Assembly: GCA_017615755.1 (NCBI GenBank)
Contig: JAFZZM010000054.1
Location: 1 to 64,000 of the forward strand
Source of the DNA: Clostridiales bacterium
GTDB taxonomy: Bacteria > Bacillota > Clostridia > Saccharofermentanales > Saccharofermentanaceae
Reading direction: 5' to 3'
DNA: 64,000 bases
A program made the translations under genes and the position numbers. Below the pieces are notes generated by a model that saw only the letters and a program-made list of their open reading frames with translations, was not told the DNA's origin and did not search any database. Below, piece by piece: positions 5,464 through 18,473 of this stretch; the stretch's first letter is position 1, and the number at the start of each line of letters is the position of its first letter.

Positions 5464-6125
5464 TTGAGGACCTCCTTCACAACGACCGGAAGGTCGCTGA
5501 ACTTCTTGATTTCAGGTACGGGAACGTTGATCTTCCCGAAGCCGTATGCGGCATGGATAAACGGGAGTCCCGCCTTTGTCGTTGCATCGTAATCACTCTG
5601 GATATCGCCGACATAGCAGGCGGCGGTCAACTTGTTTCTTTCTGCAAGGAGCTTGATGTTCTCGTCTTTCTGGAGAAGATTGTTGCCGTAGCACTCGATG
5701 TCTTCGATCAGACAGGACGGGGCGCCCCAGTCGATCTTGAAATAACCGAGGAATGCTTCGATATATCCCGCCTGACAATTGCTGACGATATAGAGATGGT
5801 AGCCGGCTTTTTTGAGCTTTTCCCATGTCTCGATCACTTCCGGATAGAGGGCGCCGCCATGCTCACTCAGGTATTCATTCTCGTATGTTTCACAGGCCTT
5901 GCGGAGCGCATCTCTTTGCTTTCCCTTTTTCGTATAGGTGAAAAGCGTATCTGCGATCACGTCCATCGGTTTTCCCATGACGCTCTGAATATCCTCTTTG
6001 GTAACGATCTTGTCGAAGCCTGCTTCCTGCACCTTGATCGTCCAGGACTTGGCAACGTTCTCGGCACTGTCCCAGACGGTGCCGTCCATATCAAATATAA
6101 TGCCTTTTTTCTCTGCCTTTTTCAT
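5460..6125 (-). CDS. HAD-superfamily phosphatase (phosphoglycolate phosphatase-like)
   Basis: A 221-residue cytoplasmic hydrolase. Motif I is GIIFDMDGTVWDS (about 8-20), where the first Asp is the nucleophile. Motif II is the Ser of YIVSN (about 115), a Lys follows in KLLAERNK, and motif IV is GDIQSDYD (about 167-174) with metal-binding acids. The large alpha-helical insertion after motif I is the C1 cap of the phosphoglycolate phosphatase group. ATG 6125 is chosen rather than longer forms because GGAG lies 8 bases upstream and family proteins start close to motif I. It overlaps the araM start by 4 bases. That coupling suggests it acts on a metabolite of the same route, possibly glycerol 1-phosphate. 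This is inference. Confidence 0.82.
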   Translation of the reverse strand: MKKAEKKGIIFDMDGTVWDSAENVAKSWTIKVQEAGFDKIVTKEDIQSVMGKPMDVIADTLFTYTKKGKQRDALRKACETYENEYLSEHGGALYPEVIETWEKLKKAGYHLYIVSNCQAGYIEAFLGYFKIDWGAPSCLIEDIECYGNNLLQKDENIKLLAERNKLTAACYVGDIQSDYDATTKAGLPFIHAAYGFGKINVPVPEIKKFSDLPVVVKEVLK

Positions 6126-6214
6126 TCTCGCTTCTCCATCTGAAAGAACAACTACTAGAATCATACGACATTCACGGGCAGGCTTCAACCACAGGGTCTA
6201 TCCTGTTCCTTATG

Positions 6215-6223
6215 TGTTATACT
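6215..6223 (+). promoter_or_regulatory. Extended -10 promoter for clostripain-like gene
   Basis: TGT followed by TATACT (6218-6223) fits an extended -10 element about 75 bases before the start codon. No -35 is obvious. It belongs to a repeated pattern in this window. Confidence 0.45.
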
Positions 6224-6296
6224 GAGTCCTGGAAAATCATCACGGGACATGCGACGGTCCTTGTGGTAGACATAATCATTGAGGGATGGGGTACAT

Positions 6297-8453
6297 ATGA
6301 AAAAGAAAGCATTTCTGGCATTGCTGCTATCGGTAGCAATGTGTTTTTCGGCTTGTGATCTGGAATTGGAAGAATCGGACACTTCGGGTTCGACGACCCA
6401 GAGCACGACCATAACGGAGAAAGAGACGGACGAGACTACTTCTTCGGAGACGAAAACGGATAATTCCGATGCAAAGAAAGACGGAAAAAGCGACAGTAGC
6501 GATAGTGAGTCCGGTTTTACCATGTCCGTCGATGGTTCCAGCGGAACCTTGAATGTTACCCGTGCGAAAAAGAAATCTACTTCGATGGGCGAGGAGGCGA
6601 GCTGGACGATCTTCGTCTATCTTTGTGGTACGGATCTCGAAAGTGAAGACGAGAACGGTATGGCCACAGATGACCTCGACCAGATGATCCAGGCTAAAGG
6701 AAGCGACAAAGTCCGCTTCGTAGTACAGACCGGCGGAACTTCGGCGTGGATGAACAACGTTGTTTCCAACTCGGCATGTGAACGTTATCTGATCCAGAAA
6801 CAGGACATCAAACTGGTGGATTCGGTTCCTCTGAAGAGCATGGGAAAAGCATCGACTCTCTCCGATTTCCTCAGCTGGGGCGTAGAGAATTACCCGGCCG
6901 AAAAGATGGGAGTGGTGTTCTGGAATCACGGTGGCGGAAGCATTACCGGTGCCTGCTTCGATGAACTCTACAATGACGATTCGCTCTCTCTCCTCGAGAT
7001 CAACGAGGCGCTCTCCAAGACGTATGAAAACATGACGGACCGTTTCGAATTCATCGGATTTGACTGCTGTCTCATGGGCAGCGTGGAAAGCGCGAATATC
7101 CTTGCGACCTATGCCAGATACTTCTACGGCTCTGAGGAGCTCGAACCCGGATACGGCTGGAACTATACCAAGATCGGGGATTATCTTGCGGAAAATAACA
7201 ACGCCGATGGTGCGGCTCTCGGAAAGGTCGTGGCCGACAGCTTCTATGCCGAGTGCGAAGCGATCTGGCAGGAGAGTGAGTGCACGTTCACCATCGTGGA
7301 TCTGGACAAGTTCGATGAATTCGCCGTTGCTTTTAACGACTATGCAAAAGCACTCTATGAGGCGGCGTCAGGCGACCTGGCGGGTATCGTCAGAGGCGTG
7401 CAGAGTGCGGATAACTTCGGCGGAAACAACCGTTCCGAAGGTTACACCAACATGGTGGATGTCGGCGGTATCCTCAAGAACTGTTCTTCTTATGCGGATG
7501 GAACTGCCGCGCTGCAGGCACTGAAGAACTGCATCGTATACAACAAAAACGGCGAGACCCATGCCGGTGCGTCCGGACTTTCCATCTACTATCCTCTTGA
7601 AGTGCAGGGTTCTAACGAGATCAGCATCTTCTCCGGTGTCTGCATCAGCCCGTACTATCTTTCCCTGGTCGACATGGTCGCAAGAGGCCATTCGGATACC
7701 GGATACACGAACGACATGTTCTTCGATGACCATGGCGACTGGTTCAGTGACAACGGCTCCAACGATTATTTCGATGATTCGTATTTCGATTACGACTACG
7801 ATGAAGAAGGAGAGAGCAGCCTGATCACATTCTCCCAGAAACCTTCTTCTACACAGGATGGTTTCGGATTTGTGCTGAGTCATGATTCTCTCGAATATAC
7901 GGCATCCGTCATCGCGTATGTGTTCTATGAACTTGATGACGAAACACTGATCTGTCTTGGTGAGACCGATGACATCATCGGCGACTGGGACACGGGTGCT
8001 TTTCAGGATAATTTCCAGGGATACTGGCTCTGCCTGCCGAGTGGCGATCTTCTGACGACATACATTGCCGACTATGGTGACGACTATACCGTGTACACAT
8101 GCCCGATCCTTCTGAACGGAGAGGAGACCAACCTGCGTGTGCGCCAGTACCTCGACTATTCGGTAGTCGTGGAAGGTACATGGGACGGCATCGGTGAGGG
8201 TGGCTGCTCTGACCGTGAGATCCGTCCGCTACAGGCAGGAGATAAGATCGAACCGATCTACTATCTCGATGATGATTCGGATATGACCGGCGACAGCTAC
8301 AAGTGGAAAAAAGGCGACGAACTGGACTATGCTTACCTTCCGGAAGGCAATTACTATTACGGCTTCGAGATCGATGACGTCTACGGCGATTACTATATCA
8401 CGGATTGTGAGATCTTCACGATTGACAGAAACGGCGATATCTATTTCGGATAA
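6297..8453 (+). CDS. Clostripain-family (C11) cysteine peptidase lipoprotein
   Basis: A 718-residue secreted lipoprotein. The signal peptide ends in a lipobox (FSAC), so Cys is lipidated and the protein is anchored outside the membrane. A Ser/Thr/Asp/Lys-rich linker follows to about residue 75. The C11 catalytic domain (about 95-440) shows the His in FWNHGGG near 210 and the Cys in FDCCLMGS near 256, the dyad of clostripain-type enzymes, which usually cut after Arg or Lys. The C-terminal 250 residues are very acidic and rich in Asp and Tyr, possibly a beta domain or calcium-binding region. ATG 6297 starts the signal peptide directly; the in-frame TTG at 6279 would put a polar tail in front. 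It may mature surface proteins or digest proteins. It is probably a single-gene unit or leads into the NUDIX gene 33 bases on. Confidence 0.85.
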   Translation: MKKKAFLALLLSVAMCFSACDLELEESDTSGSTTQSTTITEKETDETTSSETKTDNSDAKKDGKSDSSDSESGFTMSVDGSSGTLNVTRAKKKSTSMGEEASWTIFVYLCGTDLESEDENGMATDDLDQMIQAKGSDKVRFVVQTGGTSAWMNNVVSNSACERYLIQKQDIKLVDSVPLKSMGKASTLSDFLSWGVENYPAEKMGVVFWNHGGGSITGACFDELYNDDSLSLLEINEALSKTYENMTDRFEFIGFDCCLMGSVESANILATYARYFYGSEELEPGYGWNYTKIGDYLAENNNADGAALGKVVADSFYAECEAIWQESECTFTIVDLDKFDEFAVAFNDYAKALYEAASGDLAGIVRGVQSADNFGGNNRSEGYTNMVDVGGILKNCSSYADGTAALQALKNCIVYNKNGETHAGASGLSIYYPLEVQGSNEISIFSGVCISPYYLSLVDMVARGHSDTGYTNDMFFDDHGDWFSDNGSNDYFDDSYFDYDYDEEGESSLITFSQKPSSTQDGFGFVLSHDSLEYTASVIAYVFYELDDETLICLGETDDIIGDWDTGAFQDNFQGYWLCLPSGDLLTTYIADYGDDYTVYTCPILLNGEETNLRVRQYLDYSVVVEGTWDGIGEGGCSDREIRPLQAGDKIEPIYYLDDDSDMTGDSYKWKKGDELDYAYLPEGNYYYGFEIDDVYGDYYITDCEIFTIDRNGDIYFG

Positions 8454-8486
8454 CAGATGATACATAGAAGGAAAAGGAGTAGAGAC

Positions 8487-8990
8487 GTGAAAGCGATTGA
8501 AATCATAGGTGATAACTATTTCGGAAACTGGACGAGTTCAAGATCGGCCTGCCGGGCGATCATCATCAAAGATGGAAAGATGCTCCTTTCCTACGAGACG
8601 GAAACAGACCAATGGATGCTTCCGGGCGGCGGACTCGAAGAAGGGGAAACGCAGGAAGAGTGTGTCATTCGAGAAATCGCGGAAGAGACAGGTTTCGTGA
8701 TCCGTCCGGTATCGGAATGCCTTCTGGAGATCGACGAATACTACGAAGACTGCAAATGGCCGAGCTTCTATTTCCTTTGTGAGATCATCGGGACGACAGA
8801 ATCCCATCTCACCGAGAGAGAGATGGAAGTCGGCATGGAGCCGAGATGGCTTCCGGTAAAAGAAATCATCGGGGTCTTCTCGAAGCATCAGGACTATGCC
8901 GATACCGACGAGATGCGCCGTGGCATGTACCTGCGTGAGTACACGGCCTTAACGACGATCCTGGACGGATATGAAGAAACAGCTGAGTAA
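8487..8990 (+). CDS. NUDIX hydrolase
   Basis: A 167-residue protein with a full Nudix box, GGGLEEGETQEECVIREI continuing AEETGF, at about 51-74 (GX5EX7REUXEEXGU). These enzymes cleave a nucleoside diphosphate linked to another group, using Mg bound by the REUXEE glutamates. The substrate cannot be told: the protein lacks an added domain. GTG 8487 is chosen because AAGGAG lies 7-10 bases upstream and the N-terminus (MKAIEIIGDNYFGNW) leads directly into the domain; ATG 8457 would add ten basic residues. It follows the C11 peptidase by 33 bases. Confidence 0.85.
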   Translation: MKAIEIIGDNYFGNWTSSRSACRAIIIKDGKMLLSYETETDQWMLPGGGLEEGETQEECVIREIAEETGFVIRPVSECLLEIDEYYEDCKWPSFYFLCEIIGTTESHLTEREMEVGMEPRWLPVKEIIGVFSKHQDYADTDEMRRGMYLREYTALTTILDGYEETAE

Positions 8991-9045
8991 GTGCTTCGTG
9001 ACGAGCTCGAAAGACAGAAGAAAAGAAAGCAATATGCCTTAGGTA

Positions 9046-9054
9046 TGTTATAAT
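9046..9054 (+). promoter_or_regulatory. Extended -10 promoter for deacetylase gene
   Basis: TGT then TATAAT (9049-9054), 71 bases before the start codon at 9125. No clear -35 element, as is usual for extended -10 promoters. Confidence 0.55.
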
Positions 9055-9124
9055 GTGTTTGCATCGGAACCCAGGCAGTTAGTTCCGAATAATCAGGATT
9101 CCGATCCACTTGGAGAATATACAT

Positions 9125-10153
9125 ATGAAAAGACGCAGAATTGCTTTGTTGATGACTTCCGTTTTCCTTCTGGGAAACCTATCTATAGCATGTAGCAGTA
9201 AGAGTGAGAGTACCTCTACAGCAGGAAATACTTCAGTGATCGTGGCTTCGGGAAGTGAAGCGACCACGACAGAAGGAAGCTCGGAAGAGACGACCACGAC
9301 GCTGGCGACCGAGATGTCCACAAGAAATGCCGATGATGGAACAGGCCATAAGAATGCATCCATCCTCTATGAGAACGTGAACAACCCGATCGACCGGGTG
9401 GAGTGCATCCGTGACTATATGCTTGCCGATGTGGCTTACTATAACTCCCTGAATAATGTGGCCGAGGATACCTGGTGCTACATACTCAAGGATAATCACG
9501 AACAGTCCGGCTCCTACGAGTATTTCAACATCTCGGAATACAATGCTTTTTATATCGATAAGAATGTCACCGATGACGATAAGGTCGTATATCTGACCTT
9601 TGACTGCGGCTATCCGTCTAACAGAACGGCACACATCCTCGATATTCTGAAGGCGCATAATGTTAAGGCTAACTTCTTCGTGACCAAGATGTACCTCGAG
9701 GAATGTTCTGATTACTGCGTACGCATGAAGCAGGAAGGACATATGGTATGCAATCACACCGTTTCCCATACGGACTTGACCGTGAGAACTGTCGAAGACA
9801 TCATCGCTGAGATCCTCGATGTAGAAGAGTATTTCTACGAGAAGACCGGTTATGAGATCGATCATTTCTTCCGTCCGCCGACGGGTTCCTATACGAAGCG
9901 TCTCCTGTCTATCGTCCGCGATGCAGGTTATACCACGGTATTCTGGAGCTTTGCTCTTTACGATTACGACCAGAACAACCAGCCGAAGCCGGGCGAAGTT
10001 CTGGCCAGCTTCGAGAGAAGACACCATAACGGTGCCGTGATCCTGATGCATAACGACTCTTCTTCCAATGAGAACGAACTGGATTCAGTGCTGACTTATA
10101 TGGAAAGTCAGGGATACCGCTTCGCACTTCTGGACGAAGTCAAAGTAGGATAA
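9125..10153 (+). CDS. PdaA-like polysaccharide (peptidoglycan) deacetylase lipoprotein
   Basis: A 342-residue lipoprotein: signal peptide with lipobox SIAC near residue 24, then a Ser/Thr/Glu linker. The NodB domain covers about 155-340. Motifs in order are TFDCGY (catalytic base Asp; the second Asp of TFDDG is replaced by Cys), NHTVSHTD (two metal-binding His), FFRPPTGSYT, FWSFALYDYD and ILMHNDSS. The TFD-x-GY form and overall sequence are closest to PdaA, which removes acetyl from N-acetylmuramic acid in Bacillus spores and has Asn at the variable position. So peptidoglycan MurNAc is the likely substrate, but a spore role is not shown. ATG 9125 starts the signal peptide. It has its own extended -10 promoter. 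Confidence 0.82.
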   Translation: MKRRRIALLMTSVFLLGNLSIACSSKSESTSTAGNTSVIVASGSEATTTEGSSEETTTTLATEMSTRNADDGTGHKNASILYENVNNPIDRVECIRDYMLADVAYYNSLNNVAEDTWCYILKDNHEQSGSYEYFNISEYNAFYIDKNVTDDDKVVYLTFDCGYPSNRTAHILDILKAHNVKANFFVTKMYLEECSDYCVRMKQEGHMVCNHTVSHTDLTVRTVEDIIAEILDVEEYFYEKTGYEIDHFFRPPTGSYTKRLLSIVRDAGYTTVFWSFALYDYDQNNQPKPGEVLASFERRHHNGAVILMHNDSSSNENELDSVLTYMESQGYRFALLDEVKVG

Positions 10154-10202
10154 GTGTTTCTGAAAAACTCTGAAGTTGCAGAGTAGAAAGCGAGGATTGA
10201 GT

Positions 10203-10766
10203 ATGACATACAAAATGACGATTGCAGGATTGGAAAGAGAACTTCCTCTTTGTCCGATCGCAGATGACCTTTATATCGCGGCTTTTATCTGCTTTGGCGA
10301 TGCGGAGATCTCCACGGCATGTGCGCAAGAACTCCTGAAACTGGTGCCTCGCGAGAACTATGATTATATCTTTACGGCGGAGGCCAAGGGCATCCCGCTG
10401 GCACATGAGATGGCACGCCAATCCGGTGCCGAGAAGTATTTCGTTGCACGTAAAGGGCCGAAGAACTATATGCCGGACCCGATCTCCGTTGAAGATAAGT
10501 CTATTACGACAAAGGGTACGCAGAAACTGTATCTCGGACGTGACGATGCGGACATGATCCGTGGCAAGCGGATCCTTCTGGTGGACGATGTGATCTCGAC
10601 CGGTGGTTCGCTCCATGCTATGGAAGAGATGGTCAAGCTTTGCGGCGGCGAAGTTACCGGGCGTGTATGTGTGCTCGCTGAGGGCGACGCGGCCAAGAGA
10701 GAAGATATCAAGTTCATCGGCACGATCCCGTTGTTTAACGGAAAAGGAGAGCCGATCCTGGAGTAA
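10203..10766 (+). CDS. Purine phosphoribosyltransferase-like protein
   Basis: A 187-residue type I phosphoribosyltransferase. The PRPP-binding signature ILLVDDVISTGGSL lies at about 124-137, and the flexible loop region around ARKGPKNYMPDP precedes it. The overall form (YDYIFTAEAKGIPLAHEMAR) is close to adenine phosphoribosyltransferases, which make AMP from adenine and PRPP for purine salvage. True Apt proteins are similar in length, yet the N-terminal 30 residues differ, so the base could also be another purine. ATG 10203 follows the GCGAGGAT site. The next gene begins 57 bases downstream, and this gene may share its transcript with the AmmeMemoRadiSam pair. Confidence 0.78.
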   Translation: MTYKMTIAGLERELPLCPIADDLYIAAFICFGDAEISTACAQELLKLVPRENYDYIFTAEAKGIPLAHEMARQSGAEKYFVARKGPKNYMPDPISVEDKSITTKGTQKLYLGRDDADMIRGKRILLVDDVISTGGSLHAMEEMVKLCGGEVTGRVCVLAEGDAAKREDIKFIGTIPLFNGKGEPILE

Positions 10767-10823
10767 AGTGAACGAACCGCGCTGAAACTGCTGCTGGTGC
10801 AGACAGGAAAGGAAGGTATGCAT

Positions 10824-12251
10824 ATGTCGGTCATTGCATCTTTTATGGTTCCCCATCCCCCTATGATCGTCCCTTCAGTAGGACGTGGAAGCGAGAAACA
10901 GGTGTTGGAAACGACCCGCGCCTATGAGCAGGTTGCCGATGAGATCGCATCGCTTTCCCCGGAAACGATTATTTTCACGAGTCCGCATGCGACATTGTAT
11001 GCGGACTATTTTCATATTTCACCCGGCACGAAGGCCAAGGGCTCCTTCTCGTATTTCCGTGCTCCGGACGTGAAGTTTTCCGAAACCTATGACGAGGAAC
11101 TGGTGGACAAGATCAGCGAGATCGCCTATCACGAGGGCTTCCCGGCCGGCACTATGGGCGAGCAGGAGAAGGATCTGGACCATGGTACTATGGTACCCCT
11201 GTGGTTCATCCGCAACAAGTACAAAGAAGGAAAAATCGTGCGGATCGGGCTTTCCGGACATCCGCTGACGGATCACTACAAATTTGGCACCATGATCGCC
11301 CGCGCCGTCAATGCACTGGACCGTAAGGTCGTGCTTGTGGCCAGCGGAGACCTGTCCCACAAGCTTCAGGATTACGGCCCGTACGGCTTTGCCCCGGAGG
11401 GACCGAAATACGACGAACGGATCATGGACGTCATGGGGCGAGGTGCTTTTGGAGAACTATTCGACTTCGATGAGGCGTTCTGCGATAAGGCCGCGGAGTG
11501 CGGTCACCGTTCTTTCGTCATCATGGCGGGAGCCTGGGACGGTAAAAACGTGGAGGCAAAAGCACTGTCCCATCAGGATGTGACAGGCGTGGGATACGGA
11601 ATCTGTACTTTCTATCCGAAAGCAGACGAGGCGGTCATTCCGGAAAGACAGTTTCTGAAACTCTATCTTTCCGAGAAGGAGCGGGTACTTGCCGAGAAGC
11701 GCGCTTCTTCTGATGCATATGTACGCCTCGCGCGCCTTTCTCTGGAAAGTTATATCCGAAATGGAAAGAAACTGCATGTAGAAGACGCGTTGGAAGAACT
11801 TAGAAAAGACGGAACAGAAGTGCCGGAAGCGCTGGAAAACACCAGAGCAGGCGCCTTTGTATCGATACATAAACAAGGCATGCTCCGTGGCTGCATCGGT
11901 ACGATCGCGCCGACCGCGTCGAGCCTGGCACAGGAGATCATCAACAACGCGATCAGCGCCAGCACCCGTGATCCGCGTTTTGATCCGATCCTCGAGCCGG
12001 AGCTTTCCTGGCTCGAGATCAATGTGGATGTGCTGGGTGAGGCGGAACCGATCGATTCGAAAGAACAGCTGGATGTGAAGCGCTACGGTGTCATTGTGTC
12101 TACGCGTGACGGAAGAAGAGGACTGCTGCTGCCGGATCTCGATGGTGTGGATACGGTCGATGAGCAGGTGTCGATCGCGATGAGAAAGGGCGGCATCCAG
12201 GCGCATGAGAAGTATTCACTTCAGCGCTTCGAAGTGGTGCGCCACGTCTGA
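10824..12251 (+). CDS. AmmeMemoRadiSam proteins B and A fused (MEMO-like plus AMMECR1)
   Basis: A 475-residue cytoplasmic fusion. Residues 1-270 are the MEMO / class III extradiol dioxygenase-like domain: HPPMIVPSVG near the N-terminus, FTSPHATLY, LDHGTMVPL and ASGDLSHKL carry the conserved His and Asp residues of that fold. Residues about 290-475 are the AMMECR1 domain, with the diagnostic MLRGCIGTI at about 352-360 and STRDPRF. These two protein types and a radical SAM enzyme form the AmmeMemoRadiSam system, named from co-occurrence; I know of no settled biochemical function. The two are often separate genes, here joined. ATG 10824 is selected because GGAAGG lies 7 bases upstream; ATG 10818 is too close. 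The radical SAM gene starts 17 bases after the stop. Confidence 0.88.
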   Translation: MSVIASFMVPHPPMIVPSVGRGSEKQVLETTRAYEQVADEIASLSPETIIFTSPHATLYADYFHISPGTKAKGSFSYFRAPDVKFSETYDEELVDKISEIAYHEGFPAGTMGEQEKDLDHGTMVPLWFIRNKYKEGKIVRIGLSGHPLTDHYKFGTMIARAVNALDRKVVLVASGDLSHKLQDYGPYGFAPEGPKYDERIMDVMGRGAFGELFDFDEAFCDKAAECGHRSFVIMAGAWDGKNVEAKALSHQDVTGVGYGICTFYPKADEAVIPERQFLKLYLSEKERVLAEKRASSDAYVRLARLSLESYIRNGKKLHVEDALEELRKDGTEVPEALENTRAGAFVSIHKQGMLRGCIGTIAPTASSLAQEIINNAISASTRDPRFDPILEPELSWLEINVDVLGEAEPIDSKEQLDVKRYGVIVSTRDGRRGLLLPDLDGVDTVDEQVSIAMRKGGIQAHEKYSLQRFEVVRHV

Positions 12252-12268
12252 TCGGCCGGAGGGAAAAG

Positions 12269-13129
12269 ATGACGAAGTGTCAGGTGTGTTTCCGACATTG
12301 TGATCTAAAAGAAGGGCAGACCGGTTTTTGCGGAGCAAGGATCGGTCTTGGGGATCGTGTTGTGGCTTCCAACTACGGAAGCGTCACGTCGATCGCGCTC
12401 GACCCGATTGAGAAGAAACCTTTGCATCGGTTCTTTCCGGGATCGAAGATCCTCTCGGTGGGAAGCTACGGCTGTAATCTCCGATGCCCGTTCTGTCAGA
12501 ACAGCGAGATCTCATGGGGAGAAGAAGTGAAGACCTTTGCGGACACGGCAGAAACCGTTGAACCGGAGCAGCTTGTCCGGATCGCGCAGAAGTACGTCAG
12601 CGAGCGGAATATCGGTATCGCCTATACCTATAACGAACCTCTTGTGGGATATGAGTTCGTCCGTGACACGGCAAAGCTTGCTCACGAACAGGGATTGAAG
12701 AATGTGCTTGTGACCAACGGTACGGCTTCGCTTTCTGTTCTCGAAGAGATAGGACCGTATATCGATGCGATGAATATCGATGTAAAGTGTTTCTCGGAAA
12801 AGACATACGATGAGGTCTTAGGAGGAAGTCTTCCCATGACAAAAGCATTTGTCGCGGAAGCGGTGAAGATCGCGCACGTTGAACTTACATGCCTGGCTGT
12901 TCCCGGGATCAGTGATGACGAAGAGATGATGCGGGAGATGACGGGATGGATCGCTTCACTTCAGGATAAGGACGGGAGGATCATCGGAAATGAGATCCCG
13001 CTTCATGTATCCCGTTTCTTCCCGAGATTTCACATGACTGACCGCGCAGCGACTCCGGTAGCCGATGTGTATAAGCTCGCGGAGATTGCACGTGAGAAAC
13101 TGAAATACGTATATACAGGGAATTGTTAA
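12269..13129 (+). CDS. AmmeMemoRadiSam system radical SAM enzyme
   Basis: A 286-residue protein of the PflA-like radical SAM group. The cluster motif GCNLRCPFC at about 68-76 (CxxxCxxC) binds the 4Fe-4S cluster that cleaves S-adenosylmethionine. An N-terminal CQVCFRHCDLKEGQTGFCGA (about 4-23) carries four more cysteines, typical of this family. KKPLHRFFPG and AYTYNEPLVGYEF are also family signatures. It is the third member of the AmmeMemoRadiSam set and directly follows the fused A/B gene, so they very likely act together, perhaps with the AMMECR1 Cys. GGAGG lies 9 bases before ATG. Its stop TAA shares the bases TTAA (13126-13129) with the stop of the convergent MFS gene. Confidence 0.9.
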   Translation: MTKCQVCFRHCDLKEGQTGFCGARIGLGDRVVASNYGSVTSIALDPIEKKPLHRFFPGSKILSVGSYGCNLRCPFCQNSEISWGEEVKTFADTAETVEPEQLVRIAQKYVSERNIGIAYTYNEPLVGYEFVRDTAKLAHEQGLKNVLVTNGTASLSVLEEIGPYIDAMNIDVKCFSEKTYDEVLGGSLPMTKAFVAEAVKIAHVELTCLAVPGISDDEEMMREMTGWIASLQDKDGRIIGNEIPLHVSRFFPRFHMTDRAATPVADVYKLAEIAREKLKYVYTGNC

Positions 13130-14373
13130 CTCTCTTTTCTTTTTGCCGGCAGCTTCAAAAGTGCGAAGAACCCGATGGCAACGCCGAGGGCACAGACGAT
13201 CGTGCCTGTGACCAGCATGGGGCGGATGCCGAAATTGTCGAGGATCACTCCGCTGATGAGGTTCGAGAAAACGCCACCGATGGTGATACAGCTTGTGACG
13301 AAGGCCTGACCTTTGACCTGGTCATGGTCGGCCATGGTTTTACTTACATAGTAGGCGGCAGCCGGAATGAAGACCGCATAGGCGAGAAGCTGGCAGCACT
13401 GACTTAGGTACATGTGTCCCATATTCGATGCAAAGATCAATATCGCAATCTTGACCAGAAAAGCAACGCCCGAAAGAAGCAGCAGGTTTCCTGCGGTGAT
13501 CTTCTTGAGAATCAGGCCGATCAAGGCCATGACCGGCAGTTCCAGGATCGCCTGAAGGAAGTTGGCATAGCCCAGTTCTTTTTCGCCACCACCGAGATTA
13601 CGGATGATCTGGATCATGAAATCGTTGATCATGTTGTGTGCAAAGAAAAAGCAGATGACACCGATGAGAAACAGAGAAAATGCCGGGTAGGAGCGGATGA
13701 AAGTACGAAGAGAACTACTCGGGGCAGTGCTTTTGCCTTCGGAGGAGACATCGTCAGCAACCATGTTTTTCGGTTTCCGGAAGGTAAAGATCAGGATCGC
13801 GGAAAGCACCATGACTACGATGTTGATGTAAAGAAGGATGCGGATCCCGTTGCTCTCGATGAGTCCGCCGATGAAAGCGGAAGTGATGGCAAAACTTGCC
13901 GATCCCAGTCCTCTGGCAAGACCGTAGAAGATCGGTGCGCCGGCTTTCTGGTATTCGAAGCACAGCGCCGTCATGACAGGCTGGTAGGCAAACTGGATCA
14001 TGTAGATCAGGGCGAAGACCGGGAAGATAACGAGTTTGTTATTGGTCGAGAAGAGAAGAACGACAGACCCCGCAAGAATGACCAGGACCGAGATCAGGAT
14101 GAAACGGCGGTTGGTCAATGCCCCTTGTTTGTCGATGATGCCGGCGATGACCGGCTGCACGATCGCAGAGAGGATGTTGGCGATAGCCAGGAGAACGCCG
14201 ACTTCTGTATTGGAAAAACCGTTTCCCAGAAGGAAGACCGCCGCACATGCATGGATCGTGCAGAATGCGGAAAAGTATGTGGCATTGATCAGGGTATATC
14301 TGAGCGTCCAGAGAAATGAACGGCCTTTGGTGGTCTTCGGAGTTGATTCGGGTGACGGTGTTTCGGAAGGCAT
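13126..14373 (-). CDS. Major facilitator superfamily transporter
   Basis: A 415-residue integral membrane protein with about twelve hydrophobic segments in two halves. The loop after the second segment has a charged pattern (GIIDKQGALTNRRFI, about 74-88) like the MFS motif A loop between helices 2 and 3. The general look is that of the MFS_1 / nucleoside-symporter-like group (sugar or nucleoside proton symporters), but the substrate is not evident. The first 20 residues are Pro/Ser/Thr-rich and cytoplasmic. A GAGGACA site precedes the ATG at 14373, and an extended -10 lies 34-42 bases upstream. It converges with the radical SAM gene and overlaps it by 4 bases. Confidence 0.8.
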   Translation of the reverse strand: MPSETPSPESTPKTTKGRSFLWTLRYTLINATYFSAFCTIHACAAVFLLGNGFSNTEVGVLLAIANILSAIVQPVIAGIIDKQGALTNRRFILISVLVILAGSVVLLFSTNNKLVIFPVFALIYMIQFAYQPVMTALCFEYQKAGAPIFYGLARGLGSASFAITSAFIGGLIESNGIRILLYINIVVMVLSAILIFTFRKPKNMVADDVSSEGKSTAPSSSLRTFIRSYPAFSLFLIGVICFFFAHNMINDFMIQIIRNLGGGEKELGYANFLQAILELPVMALIGLILKKITAGNLLLLSGVAFLVKIAILIFASNMGHMYLSQCCQLLAYAVFIPAAAYYVSKTMADHDQVKGQAFVTSCITIGGVFSNLISGVILDNFGIRPMLVTGTIVCALGVAIGFFALLKLPAKRKES

Positions 14374-14406
14374 ATCGTGTCCTCGTGTCTTCGTAGATTT
14401 GACCTG

Positions 14407-14415
14407 ATTATATCA
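14407..14415 (-). promoter_or_regulatory. Extended -10 promoter for MFS gene
   Basis: On the minus strand TGA then TATAAT (plus 14407-14412), 34 bases before the MFS start. Just beyond it a short hairpin GGAGGA-aaa-TCCTCC (14432-14446) followed by GTTTT lies between the divergent MFS and amino-acid transporter genes; I cannot assign it. Confidence 0.5.
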
Positions 14416-14597
14416 TGGGCGGCGGCTCGAAGGAGGAAAATCCTCCGTTTTGTACGGAAAGAGCCCCTCTTTTTGTCCTAAATGCCGAAAACCCAGTGCT
14501 TTTGATTGAGAAATTCGTAGAATATCGGAGTGGCATTTGTGGGAGCAGAGGCATTATACTTATAGCGTAGACATTTTATTGTCATAGGAGGATATAT

Positions 14598-15476
14598 ATG
14601 AAGAAGTTATTATCAAAGATCGTATCTGTTGGTTTGATCTTCTGCATGACGGGAGCTATGGCCGGCTGTTCCAAATCGGAAGAGACAACAAAGGCAACTA
14701 CTGCTGCTGACACAACTGCAGCGGACACAACCGCGGGGGATTCTTCGGCCGCAGATACAACTGCAGCTGCTGAGAAGTTCACTGTACAGGAAGGCAAGCT
14801 GATCATGGCTACCAATGCTTTCTTCCAGCCGTACGAGTATTATCAGGGTGATAAGATCGTCGGTATCGATGCGGAGATCGCTGAAGCACTTGCGAAGAAG
14901 CTGGGTCTTGAACTGCAGATCATGGACGTAGAGTTCGATTCCATCATCGCCGGTGTACAGAACAATAAGTATGACTTCGGTATGGCCGGTATGACTGTTA
15001 CCGATACACGTAAGAAGGCAGTAAACTTTACTACTACTTATGCTACAGGTATCCAGGCGATCATCGTGAAGGAAGGTTCCGAGATCGTTGATATTGATAC
15101 ACTTCTGGGCGGCAACTACAAGGTTGGTGTACAGCAGGGTACAACAGGTGATATCTACATGTCCGCTGAGCCGGATGACGGTGGCGTAGGTGAATCCAGA
15201 ATCGTACGTTACTCCAAGGGTCCGGATGCTGTTCTCGCTCTTTCTACAGGTAAGGTTGATGCAGTAGTTATCGATAACGAACCGGCTAAGTCTTTTGTTG
15301 CTGCAAACGAAGGATTGAAGATCCTGGAAACACCTTTCACGGTTGAAGATTATGCTATGTGCGTAAACAAGGACAACACCGTTCTTCTTGATAAGCTCAA
15401 TGCTGCACTGAAGGAACTGACAGATGATGGTACGATCGCATCTATCATCGAGAAGTACATTCCTTCCAACGGCTGA
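14598..15476 (+). CDS. Polar amino-acid ABC transporter substrate-binding lipoprotein
   Basis: A 292-residue extracellular solute-binding protein of family 3. The signal peptide ends in AMAGC (lipobox), followed by a Thr/Ala/Asp linker of repeated ADTTA units to about residue 58. The domain shows FFQPYEYYQGDKIVGIDAEI and FDFGMAGMT-like stretches (YDFGMAGMTVTDTRKK, about 131-146), where Thr and Arg normally hold the amino-acid carboxylate. It captures a polar amino acid such as Gln, His or cystine and hands it to the permease encoded next. GGAGG lies 8 bases before ATG. Codon use is that of a well-expressed gene. A strong terminator follows, then the permease and ATPase genes. Confidence 0.9.
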   Translation: MKKLLSKIVSVGLIFCMTGAMAGCSKSEETTKATTAADTTAADTTAGDSSAADTTAAAEKFTVQEGKLIMATNAFFQPYEYYQGDKIVGIDAEIAEALAKKLGLELQIMDVEFDSIIAGVQNNKYDFGMAGMTVTDTRKKAVNFTTTYATGIQAIIVKEGSEIVDIDTLLGGNYKVGVQQGTTGDIYMSAEPDDGGVGESRIVRYSKGPDAVLALSTGKVDAVVIDNEPAKSFVAANEGLKILETPFTVEDYAMCVNKDNTVLLDKLNAALKELTDDGTIASIIEKYIPSNG

Positions 15477-15536
15477 TATTATGACTTGTTCAGAAAGCAT
15501 ATATTGCTTTCCAGACGAAACGGAAAAGAAATGAAA

Positions 15537-15573
15537 AAGAAGGCGTGAAATACTTTATTTCCGCCTTCTTTTC
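15537..15573 (+). terminator. Rho-independent terminator between binding-protein and permease genes
   Basis: Stem AAGAAGGCG (15537-15545) pairs with CGCCTTCTT (15562-15570), followed by TTC-TTAT. A second smaller hairpin (GAAAGCA / TGCTTTC, 15493-15511) lies before it. It probably makes the binding protein more abundant than the permease and ATPase by stopping most transcripts. Confidence 0.75.
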
Positions 15574-15620
15574 TTATAAAATAGTAGTCTCGAATAGAAG
15601 ATGATCTGGAGGGTGTTATC

Positions 15621-16388
15621 ATGTTATATTCGCAACAGGGATACCGGGTTCTCCTGTCCTTGGCGACCTGGTGGGATAAGTGGAAGGACCGCTTATATAC
15701 CAATTTGATTGAAGAAGAACGATATAAGTACCTGTTAAAGGGACTGTGGATGACGATGAAGATCACGTTCTTCGCGTTGCTTCTTGGCGTAGCGCTGGGT
15801 GTGGTTGCGGCTATTGTACGTGCTACACATGACAAGACGATCAAGGAGATGCGTCCGGGTATTAAGAGATTCCTGCTTAAGTTTTTCAATACGATCGTGA
15901 ATCTCTATCTGACCGTGATCCGTGGAACGCCTGTGGTCGTTCAGCTCATGATCATGTACTATATCATCTTCGCTTCCTCAACAAATACCTTGCTTGTTGC
16001 CTCTTTGGCCTTTGGTATCAACTCCGGTGCATATGTCGCGGAGATCATCCGTTCCGGTATCATGAGTATCGATAACGGACAATTTGAAGCCGGTCGTTCT
16101 CTGGGATTTAATTATGTGCAGACCATGATCTACATCATTATTCCGCAGGCTTTTAAGAACGTTCTGCCTGCGCTGGCCAATGAGTTTATCGTATTGATCA
16201 AAGAAACATCTGTCTCCGGTTACGTTGGCATCATGGACCTTGCCCGTGGTGGTGACGTTATCCGAAGCCGTACATATGACGCGCTTCCCGGTCTTCTTGC
16301 TGTAGCAATTATTTACCTGGTCGTCGTTATCTTCTTTACCAAGTTAGTATCGATACTTGAAAGGAGGCTGAGAAACAGTGAGCGCTGA
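15621..16388 (+). CDS. Polar amino-acid ABC transporter permease
   Basis: A 255-residue inner-membrane permease of the HisM/GlnP family. A cytoplasmic N-terminal part of about 38 residues is followed by about five membrane helices. [17 protein letters not shown] (about 96-112) is the family signature, and the [14 protein letters not shown]...PQAF region (about 156-175) is the EAA loop that contacts the ATPase. It forms the translocation channel, probably as a homodimer. GGAGGGTG precedes ATG 15621. The 3' end overlaps the ATPase gene by 11 bases, so the pair is co-translated. Confidence 0.9.
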
Positions 16389-17169
16389 GAATTCCAATAA
16401 CGAAACAACGAAGACGATTGAAAACGGTGAAGTCCTTATCTCAGTAGATGGACTGGCCAAGCACTACAAGAGCAAGCGAGGTGAGATCCATGCTCTGGAC
16501 GGGATCACCACGGACATCAAGAAGGGAGAGGTACTGGTCATCATCGGACCTTCCGGCTCCGGTAAATCCACATTCCTCCGTTCGCTGAATCTCCTTGAGA
16601 TGCCGACAGAAGGTACGATCACTTTTGAAGGAGTGGACATCACTTCTCCGAAAAACGATATCAACAAACTCCGTCAGAAGATGGGTATGGTGTTCCAGCA
16701 CTTCAATCTTTTCCCGCATCTGACGATCCTGGATAATATGACGCTGGCGCCGAGAAAGCTTCTGAAGATGAGTAGAGACGATGCGGAGGCAAAGGCGAGA
16801 GAACTGCTCAAGAAGGTTGCTCTGGAAGACCGTGAACTTGCGTATCCCAGCCAGCTTTCCGGTGGACAGAAACAGCGTATCGCTATTGTCCGTGCACTTT
16901 GTATGTCTCCGGATGTGCTTCTGTTCGACGAACCGACTTCGGCACTGGATCCGGAAATGGTCGGTGAAGTTCTCGATGTTATGAAGGATCTCGCAAAGTC
17001 CGGAATGACGATGGCAGTCGTTACGCATGAGATGGGTTTTGCAAGAGAAGTCGGTTCCCGTGTGATCTTCATGGACGAAGGAAAGATCGTCGAGGAGGGT
17101 ACTCCGGACGAGATCTTCAATCATCCGAAGAACGAGAGACTCCAGTCTTTCCTGGCTAAGGTCCTTTAA
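16378..17169 (+). CDS. Polar amino-acid ABC transporter ATPase (GlnQ-like)
   Basis: A 263-residue ABC ATPase. Walker A is GPSGSGKST (about 59-67), the Q-loop is [11 protein letters not shown], the signature is LSGGQKQR (about 160-167), Walker B is VLLFDEPTS (about 179-187), and the His switch is VTHEMGFA. This is the polar amino-acid importer class. It drives uptake with the permease just upstream. The first 22 residues are a polar extension rarely found in GlnQ. The GTG start at 16378 has AAGGAGG ten bases upstream, inside the permease gene. A terminator follows about 30 bases after the stop. Confidence 0.92.
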
Positions 17170-17200
17170 TCTCCAGGTTAAAATCGATAGTGCTTTTACA

Positions 17201-17233
17201 AAAGAGGAATGCAGATCGCATTCCTCTTTTTTG
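17201..17233 (+). terminator. Rho-independent terminator after the amino-acid ABC operon
   Basis: AAAGAGGAATGC (17201-17212) pairs perfectly with GCATTCCTCTTT (17218-17229), then a T run. Confidence 0.85.
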
Positions 17234-17333
17234 TGTACATAAAGATTACACATCGGAGAACTATACTGACCTTAAAGAAAGGGAAATGGCTCGGCGGAAG
17301 TTCGGTCCGGGACATCAGGAAAGGAGTCCGATG

Positions 17334-18473
17334 ATGAAAAAGAAGTTGTGCGTGCTGATGACGGTGTTAGTCATGGCTAATCTTAATGTGGCCTGCAGGA
17401 AGGAAAATGTGGAAATCATGAGTGCTCCTGCATATCAGGTGCCTTCTTTGTATACGAGAGCTACCGTGTCGGAGGATGAACCGGACCCGCCGAGAAAAAA
17501 AGAAGAACTTCGTTATCTTGCTTCGGAGACGGATGCCGTGGGAAAGACCATCAGTAAATGGCCATCGATCTCACTAAGCGGTGATCCGGATGAGGTGATC
17601 GAGATCAAGGAGGATTGTTTTTACGAAGATGAGAGATTCTTCCTTTTCTTCCAGAAAGGTGTGAAGATCCATGGCGATCTGGCCGGGCATATTGACCGCA
17701 TCATGAGTGAACTGGAAGAGCTTTTGCATATGTCGTATGAACGCGATCCGGTAAACAGCGATATCAACTGGAGGTTTTTGTACTTCGACAATGCCTTTTC
17801 CGATGTGAACCGGGACCTGGGAAAACTGAATATCCTGATCCTTAAAAATCCGCATGACGGCCGTGTCGAGTGGGCCGGAGAAAATGTCGCCGTTCTGTAT
17901 GAAGAGGATGTATTCTCACCGGAATACGATCTTCAGGCAGCGTACCACGAAATGGCACACGCACTGCAGCTTCGTCAGTCGGGTCCTTTTGGAAGAGTAC
18001 TGGCAGAAGGTATTGCGACCTATGCCGAATATAAACTGGCGGTCCTGGAAAACCGCCCGGCATGGGATACGGCATTCTTCATCCGCGATGAAAGAAATCC
18101 ATATCCGTACGATGAGACGAGGATCTATGCCGATCCGGTCGGAACATATATCTACGATACGGAAGTGGAAAGCGGACATGCGAACAGTGAGTACCAGTAC
18201 GGGATCCGTTTTGTGACGTTCCTGGTGGAAACTTACGGCGAGGATGTCATCGACAGGATGTGCCGTATCTCGCTTCAGTTTGACTACGAAGAATCCCGTA
18301 CCGACATGATCATGCGTGTGATCAAAGATGCTACATCGGACGATGTGTTTGAGAGATTTGCGAAGTGGCTTCCCGAAGGATGGAAGAAATTCGGAGAAGA
18401 ATATGTGGAATACATGAGACAGTTCGATCCGACATTACAATACAAAACCGATTCTAAACAGGCGCCTGTCTGA
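17334..18473 (+). CDS. Putative gluzincin-type zinc metallopeptidase lipoprotein
   Basis: A 379-residue protein with a lipoprotein signal peptide ending LNVAC near residue 22. In the middle (about 205) is HEMAHAL, an HExxH zinc-binding motif, followed about 20 residues later by EGIATYAEY, where Glu could be the third zinc ligand. This is the gluzincin arrangement. So it is probably a surface-anchored peptidase; the family is not more closely recognisable. GAP: the region before the motif has Asp/Glu-rich strands. ATG 17334 has AAGGAG 7 bases upstream (ATG 17331 is also possible). It is 30 bases before the LRR-PASTA-DUF4214 gene, so the two exported proteins are likely co-expressed. Confidence 0.72.
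   Translation: MKKKLCVLMTVLVMANLNVACRKENVEIMSAPAYQVPSLYTRATVSEDEPDPPRKKEELRYLASETDAVGKTISKWPSISLSGDPDEVIEIKEDCFYEDERFFLFFQKGVKIHGDLAGHIDRIMSELEELLHMSYERDPVNSDINWRFLYFDNAFSDVNRDLGKLNILILKNPHDGRVEWAGENVAVLYEEDVFSPEYDLQAAYHEMAHALQLRQSGPFGRVLAEGIATYAEYKLAVLENRPAWDTAFFIRDERNPYPYDETRIYADPVGTYIYDTEVESGHANSEYQYGIRFVTFLVETYGEDVIDRMCRISLQFDYEESRTDMIMRVIKDATSDDVFERFAKWLPEGWKKFGEEYVEYMRQFDPTLQYKTDSKQAPV

Follow-up and report, generated by a model that had tools for sequence, protein, structure and literature searches.

A Two-Gene AmmeMemoRadiSam Locus with a Fused B-A Protein and a Linked Radical SAM Enzyme in a Clostridiales Bacterium

In the Clostridiales bacterium described here, a rumen-type inhabitant of the gut, a fusion protein consisting of a LigB-like B domain and an AMMECR1 domain is encoded next to a radical SAM enzyme, and this pair of genes is a conserved functional unit that is already known and catalogued by NCBI as AmmeMemoRadiSam. 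AMMECR1 is present in 190 of 249 phylum genomes, and 186 of these 190 also have a strong radical SAM match (E below 1e-43), as against none of the 59 genomes that lack AMMECR1 (raw counts, shared ancestry included); it is from this near-total co-occurrence of the two genes that we conclude that they form a unit. The reading that we favor, and consider reasonably probable, is that the locus is the standard Clostridia-type two-gene AmmeMemoRadiSam unit, in which the fused Fe-site/AMMECR1 protein would handle a substrate that radical SAM chemistry modifies without O2.

Results

Gene organization and family assignment

The locus lies in a stretch of 64,000 nucleotides (the window), in whose coordinates all positions are given in Table 1. 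The coordinates of the three ORFs agree with those of the first-pass annotation, as does the 17-base gap (12252-12268) that separates the fusion ORF from the radical SAM ORF. The fusion ORF starts with ATG, is preceded by the ribosome-binding-like sequence AGGAAGG and has no internal stop codon in the fused frame; a similar ribosome-binding-like sequence, GGAGGG, is located upstream of the radical SAM ORF. An Rfam search of positions 6000-18000 gave no match, and promoter-like sites are no more frequent than expected by chance.

Table 1. Features of the AmmeMemoRadiSam locus and its upstream neighbor (window coordinates)
Feature	Position	Strand	Basis and remarks
Phosphoribosyltransferase, PRK07322 subfamily	10203..10766	+	NF005592; genus-level neighbor, probably outside the system
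Fused AmmeMemoRadiSam protein B-A	10824..12251	+	475 aa; ORF, Pfam, NCBIfam, homologue alignment, AlphaFold model
B domain (extradiol-dioxygenase/MEMO fold), residues 1-269	10824..11630	+	Pfam, 47-homologue alignment, structure comparison
Linker between B and AMMECR1 domains	residues about 270-295 of the fusion	+	
AMMECR1 domain, residues 295-475	11706..12248	+	Pfam, NCBIfam, alignment, structure comparison
AmmeMemoRadiSam radical SAM enzyme	12269..13129	+	286 aa; TIGR04337, Cys motifs, PFL-activating-enzyme fold

When the fusion protein was searched against Pfam, residues 7-260 matched PF02900 (LigB, E 1.3e-45) and residues 300-472 matched PF01871 (AMMECR1, E 5.4e-42), and no match to the Pfam Memo profile PF01875 was detected anywhere in the host genome. 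The fusion scores 115.7 bits with TIGR04335 (AmmeMemoSam_A), above the cut-off of 99, and 25.6 bits with TIGR04336 (AmmeMemoSam_B), 0.4 bit under the cut-off of 26. TIGR04336 matches all 47 aligned homologues at E <= 0.001 (best 1.9e-12), and HpaD-like matches are present in 47/47 as well. In the AMMECR1 domain, the motif LRGCIGT (354-360) and residues D383/R385 are invariant.

The radical SAM protein scores 236.8 bits with TIGR04337 (AmmeMemoSam_rS), above the cut-off of 220, whereas with PFLA it stays far under the cut-off. Its cluster motif C69-x3-C73-x2-C76 (CxxxCxxC) is invariant in 138/138 sequences, and the N-terminal Cys set C4-x2-C7-x3-C11-x9-C21 is found in 137 of 138. The model predicts a barrel whose closest structural match is PFL-activating enzyme (Z 24; 228 residues aligned, starting past the N-terminal four-Cys segment), and the nearest PDB sequence is likewise PFL-activating enzyme. 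The domain and family matches and the ORF layout thus bear out the initial identification of an AmmeMemoRadiSam locus with a B-A fusion and a tightly linked radical SAM partner.

Structure model and predicted metal site of the B domain

The AlphaFold model of the fusion (pLDDT 94.8, pTM 0.90) suggests that the B and AMMECR1 domains are packed in a fixed arrangement. The earlier claim that the fusion shows A and B acting at 1:1 fits this two-domain model and is reasonable to infer, if worded as a suggestion rather than a demonstration. The structural neighbors of the B domain are TK2203 (Z 32.5), aminophenol dioxygenase (28), LigAB (25.5) and then MEMO1 (20.3), and those of the AMMECR1 domain are PH0010 (Z 19.3) and MM0484. 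Both its sequence family and its fold thus place the B domain nearer the extradiol dioxygenases of LigB type than Pfam Memo.

Residues H11, H55, D119, H120, D176, S178, H179 and C226 are invariant across the 47 homologues, and position 225, beside C226, is Glu in 41 of them and Gln in 6. In MEMO1 the iron is held by H49/H81/C244, which superpose on H12/H61/E242 of the dioxygenase LigB (eLife 86354). The third ligand of the predicted metal site in the B domain is likely to be C226, which would correspond to the invariant Cys of MEMO1, because of its invariance and the surrounding motif C226-G-x-R-S/P; the B domain would therefore look MEMO-like in its site and LigB-like in its scaffold. E225, which one pairwise alignment places on the dioxygenase Glu, could be the third ligand instead of C226. 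The term "MEMO-like" used in the first-pass annotation thus appears apt for the predicted metal site (H11, H55 and C226, plus H120, D176 and H179), but not for the Pfam family and the nearest structures, which are those of LigB-type extradiol dioxygenases.

A separate Memo (PF01875) family with a signal-like N-terminus occurs in some members of the phylum (loci L207-L219, e.g. L208:5818-6699), and from their sequences these proteins look exported. They carry an invariant Asp, part of an LDSP motif, at what might be the position of the MEMO1 Cys. Profile comparison with these exported-looking proteins yielded no third-ligand assignment for the B domain. Mutual exclusion of Memo and LigB-AMMECR1 was considered and rejected, as several genomes of the phylum carry both.

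Distribution and linkage of the two genes

Of 59 relatives, 42 have a match to the fusion, mostly as a single full-length frame through genus, family and order (in a few of the 42 the domains are split over two ORFs), with identities of 71-85% inside the genus and about 35-48% over most of the order and phylum. In the phylum set, AMMECR1 is present in 190 of 249 genomes and LigB in 199 of 249, the LigB domain accompanying AMMECR1 in 189 of the 190 AMMECR1-positive genomes; among the matches listed, most AMMECR1 domains lie within open frames of about 420-550 codons. Thirty diverse loci of the phylum were read directly, and the B-A fusion was found in 29 of them with a radical SAM match nearby in all 30. 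The B-A fusion is the usual architecture in the phylum and nothing special to the host genome. A sequencing error, named at the outset as a possible cause of the fusion, is ruled out because the frame is uninterrupted by stop codons and its conservation extends through genus, order and phylum. In one locus (L037, G025:C12:15965-17353) the fusion gene contains two in-frame TAG codons, attributable to a pseudogene, an assembly error or recoding.

The radical SAM gene is located directly downstream of the fusion in 103 of 120 further loci. When the genes of 156 loci were clustered by family, the fusion gene and its radical SAM partner were the sole ones to recur throughout, and there was no third, equally conserved neighbor gene among these loci. 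In four genomes (G284, G219, G079 and G240) AMMECR1 and LigB are matched but no radical SAM match is strong, and in G284 and G240 each of the two domains is present in two copies. In other members of the phylum (L167-L206) the locus is often near ribosomal protein L13/S9-like genes, together with genes that, from reading their sequences, we take to be cwlD-, cdaA- and glmM-like; these surroundings apparently reflect general chromosomal synteny.

In a tree of 61 fusion proteins, the host genus, one further genus of its family, rumen Lachnospiraceae and Treponema form one fully supported group, and two other genera of the host family fall outside it. The fusion proteins of rumen Treponema/Spirochaetaceae MAGs (L134, L158, L165 and L156) are about 62-66% identical and group with those of rumen Clostridia. 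With Treponema sequences inside the rumen group and part of the host family outside it, the tree suggests that the fusion gene has moved horizontally among rumen bacteria.

The phosphoribosyltransferase neighbor

The gene upstream of the fusion encodes a protein that scores 204.5 bits with NF005592 (cut-off 143), with adenine phosphopsicosyltransferase (7f06) as the top PDB match followed by adenine phosphoribosyltransferases. Most members of the host genus carry it close upstream of the fusion, separated by a small gap; in a few the distance is about 1.1 kb greater, and in some about 1.7 kb lies between the two. Of 120 wider loci, 3 have it as a neighbor, each of them from the host genus, and the other 117 lack it there. 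In the sister genus and the order it is likewise missing beside the locus, and its homologues from the order sit on other contigs. The gene is probably a bystander, and on these grounds it was rejected as part of the system. The proposal that it hints at a nucleotide-related substrate did not hold up: because the adjacency is limited to the host genus, it offers no clue to the substrate, and a false lead is removed.

Discussion

In the favored reading, the radical SAM enzyme would generate a 5'-deoxyadenosyl radical, which may take a hydrogen from a substrate bound or completed by the fused protein. In the B domain, two His and one Cys would probably bind Fe(II). As a redox or Lewis-acid center, this Fe(II) might either support a step other than oxygenation or capture the substrate. 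The AMMECR1 domain, with its invariant LRGCIGT, may bind or thiolate-activate the same substrate next to the B domain; candidate substrate classes are a metabolite, a nucleotide or base, a lipid and a protein. A non-oxygenase role of Fe(II) is preferred in view of the apparently anaerobic life of the host, as judged from its rumen-sampled relatives and from cytochrome bd, which was not found in the 84% complete genome. A more specific version, which we put forward tentatively and regard as rather doubtful, is that an extradiol-dioxygenase scaffold has been turned into a Cys-ligated Fe(II) site that would act without O2 on the radical SAM product, with AMMECR1 sharing one active-site chamber. 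If true, a phylum-wide anaerobic enzyme would be the first to give a defined reaction to the MEMO/AMMECR1 proteins, which humans also have.

The B domain might alternatively be an ordinary O2-dependent extradiol dioxygenase with a His-His-Glu iron (E225), the radical SAM enzyme acting elsewhere in an aromatic pathway. The PF02900 and HpaD-like matches, the dioxygenases among the structural neighbors and the pairwise alignment of E225 all speak for such an enzyme, but we consider it unlikely: bacteria of this phylum are mostly anaerobic and yet the system is near-universal among them, E225 is replaced by Gln in 6/47 homologues whereas C226 is invariant, no aromatic-degradation genes recur near the 156 clustered loci, and the radical SAM partner belongs to an oxygen-sensitive enzyme type.

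The resemblance of the radical SAM enzyme to PFL-activating enzyme, in both fold and sequence, would fit an activase of a glycyl radical enzyme with the fused protein as its chaperone. The one glycyl radical enzyme found in the host genome, a PFL at G000:C19, is followed about 2.7 kb downstream, in the same orientation, by a PFL-activating enzyme of its own, so that a redundant activase role is less likely; moreover, glycyl radical enzymes are not among the recurrent neighbors of the 156 clustered loci, and the profile scores place the protein with AmmeMemoSam_rS and not with PFLA, which makes this reading very improbable. Least probable of all is that the pair works in nucleotide or base metabolism with the adjacent phosphoribosyltransferase. 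The short-gap adjacency in most genomes of the genus is in its favor, and Burroughs et al. reportedly proposed a nucleotide-base link for Memo domains in 2019; against it stand the 3/120 wider loci, the distances between the genes in some genus members and the homologues on other contigs in the order.

The remark in the first-pass annotation that the chemistry of these proteins is unsettled is supported. AMMECR1 has been listed among the top-priority uncharacterized archaeal families (PMC6393860), and AMMECR1 and MEMO1 have human members whose function is unsettled. The two-gene Clostridia unit is a compact natural test system because its two genes co-occur near-perfectly and no third gene is conserved with them among the clustered loci.

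Compared with the catalogued AmmeMemoRadiSam system (TIGR04335 for A, TIGR04336 for B and TIGR04337 for rS), the locus is alike in that A and the radical SAM protein score above their cut-offs and the genes are adjacent, and unlike in that A and B are joined in a single polypeptide, with B resembling LigB more than Pfam Memo. CDD model cd07951, which we take to represent a LigB-AMMECR1 fusion, has the same domain order and was already catalogued; we know of no difference from it. MEMO1 (PF01875) shares the fold and, as far as can be judged from sequence, an apparent His-His-Cys site with Asp and His nearby, whereas the B domain has no PF01875 match, a structural identity of about 13% and an overall closer relation to dioxygenases. 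The LigB-type class III extradiol dioxygenases (PF02900; aminophenol 1,6-dioxygenase and LigAB) and archaeal TK2203 provide the best sequence family and the best structural matches, and the B domain differs from them in the invariant Cys at the apparent third-ligand position, the probable anaerobic context and the AMMECR1 fusion. The description of Memo-Ammecr1 systems that include a radical SAM domain is credited to Burroughs et al. 2019 (cited in PMC7159879).
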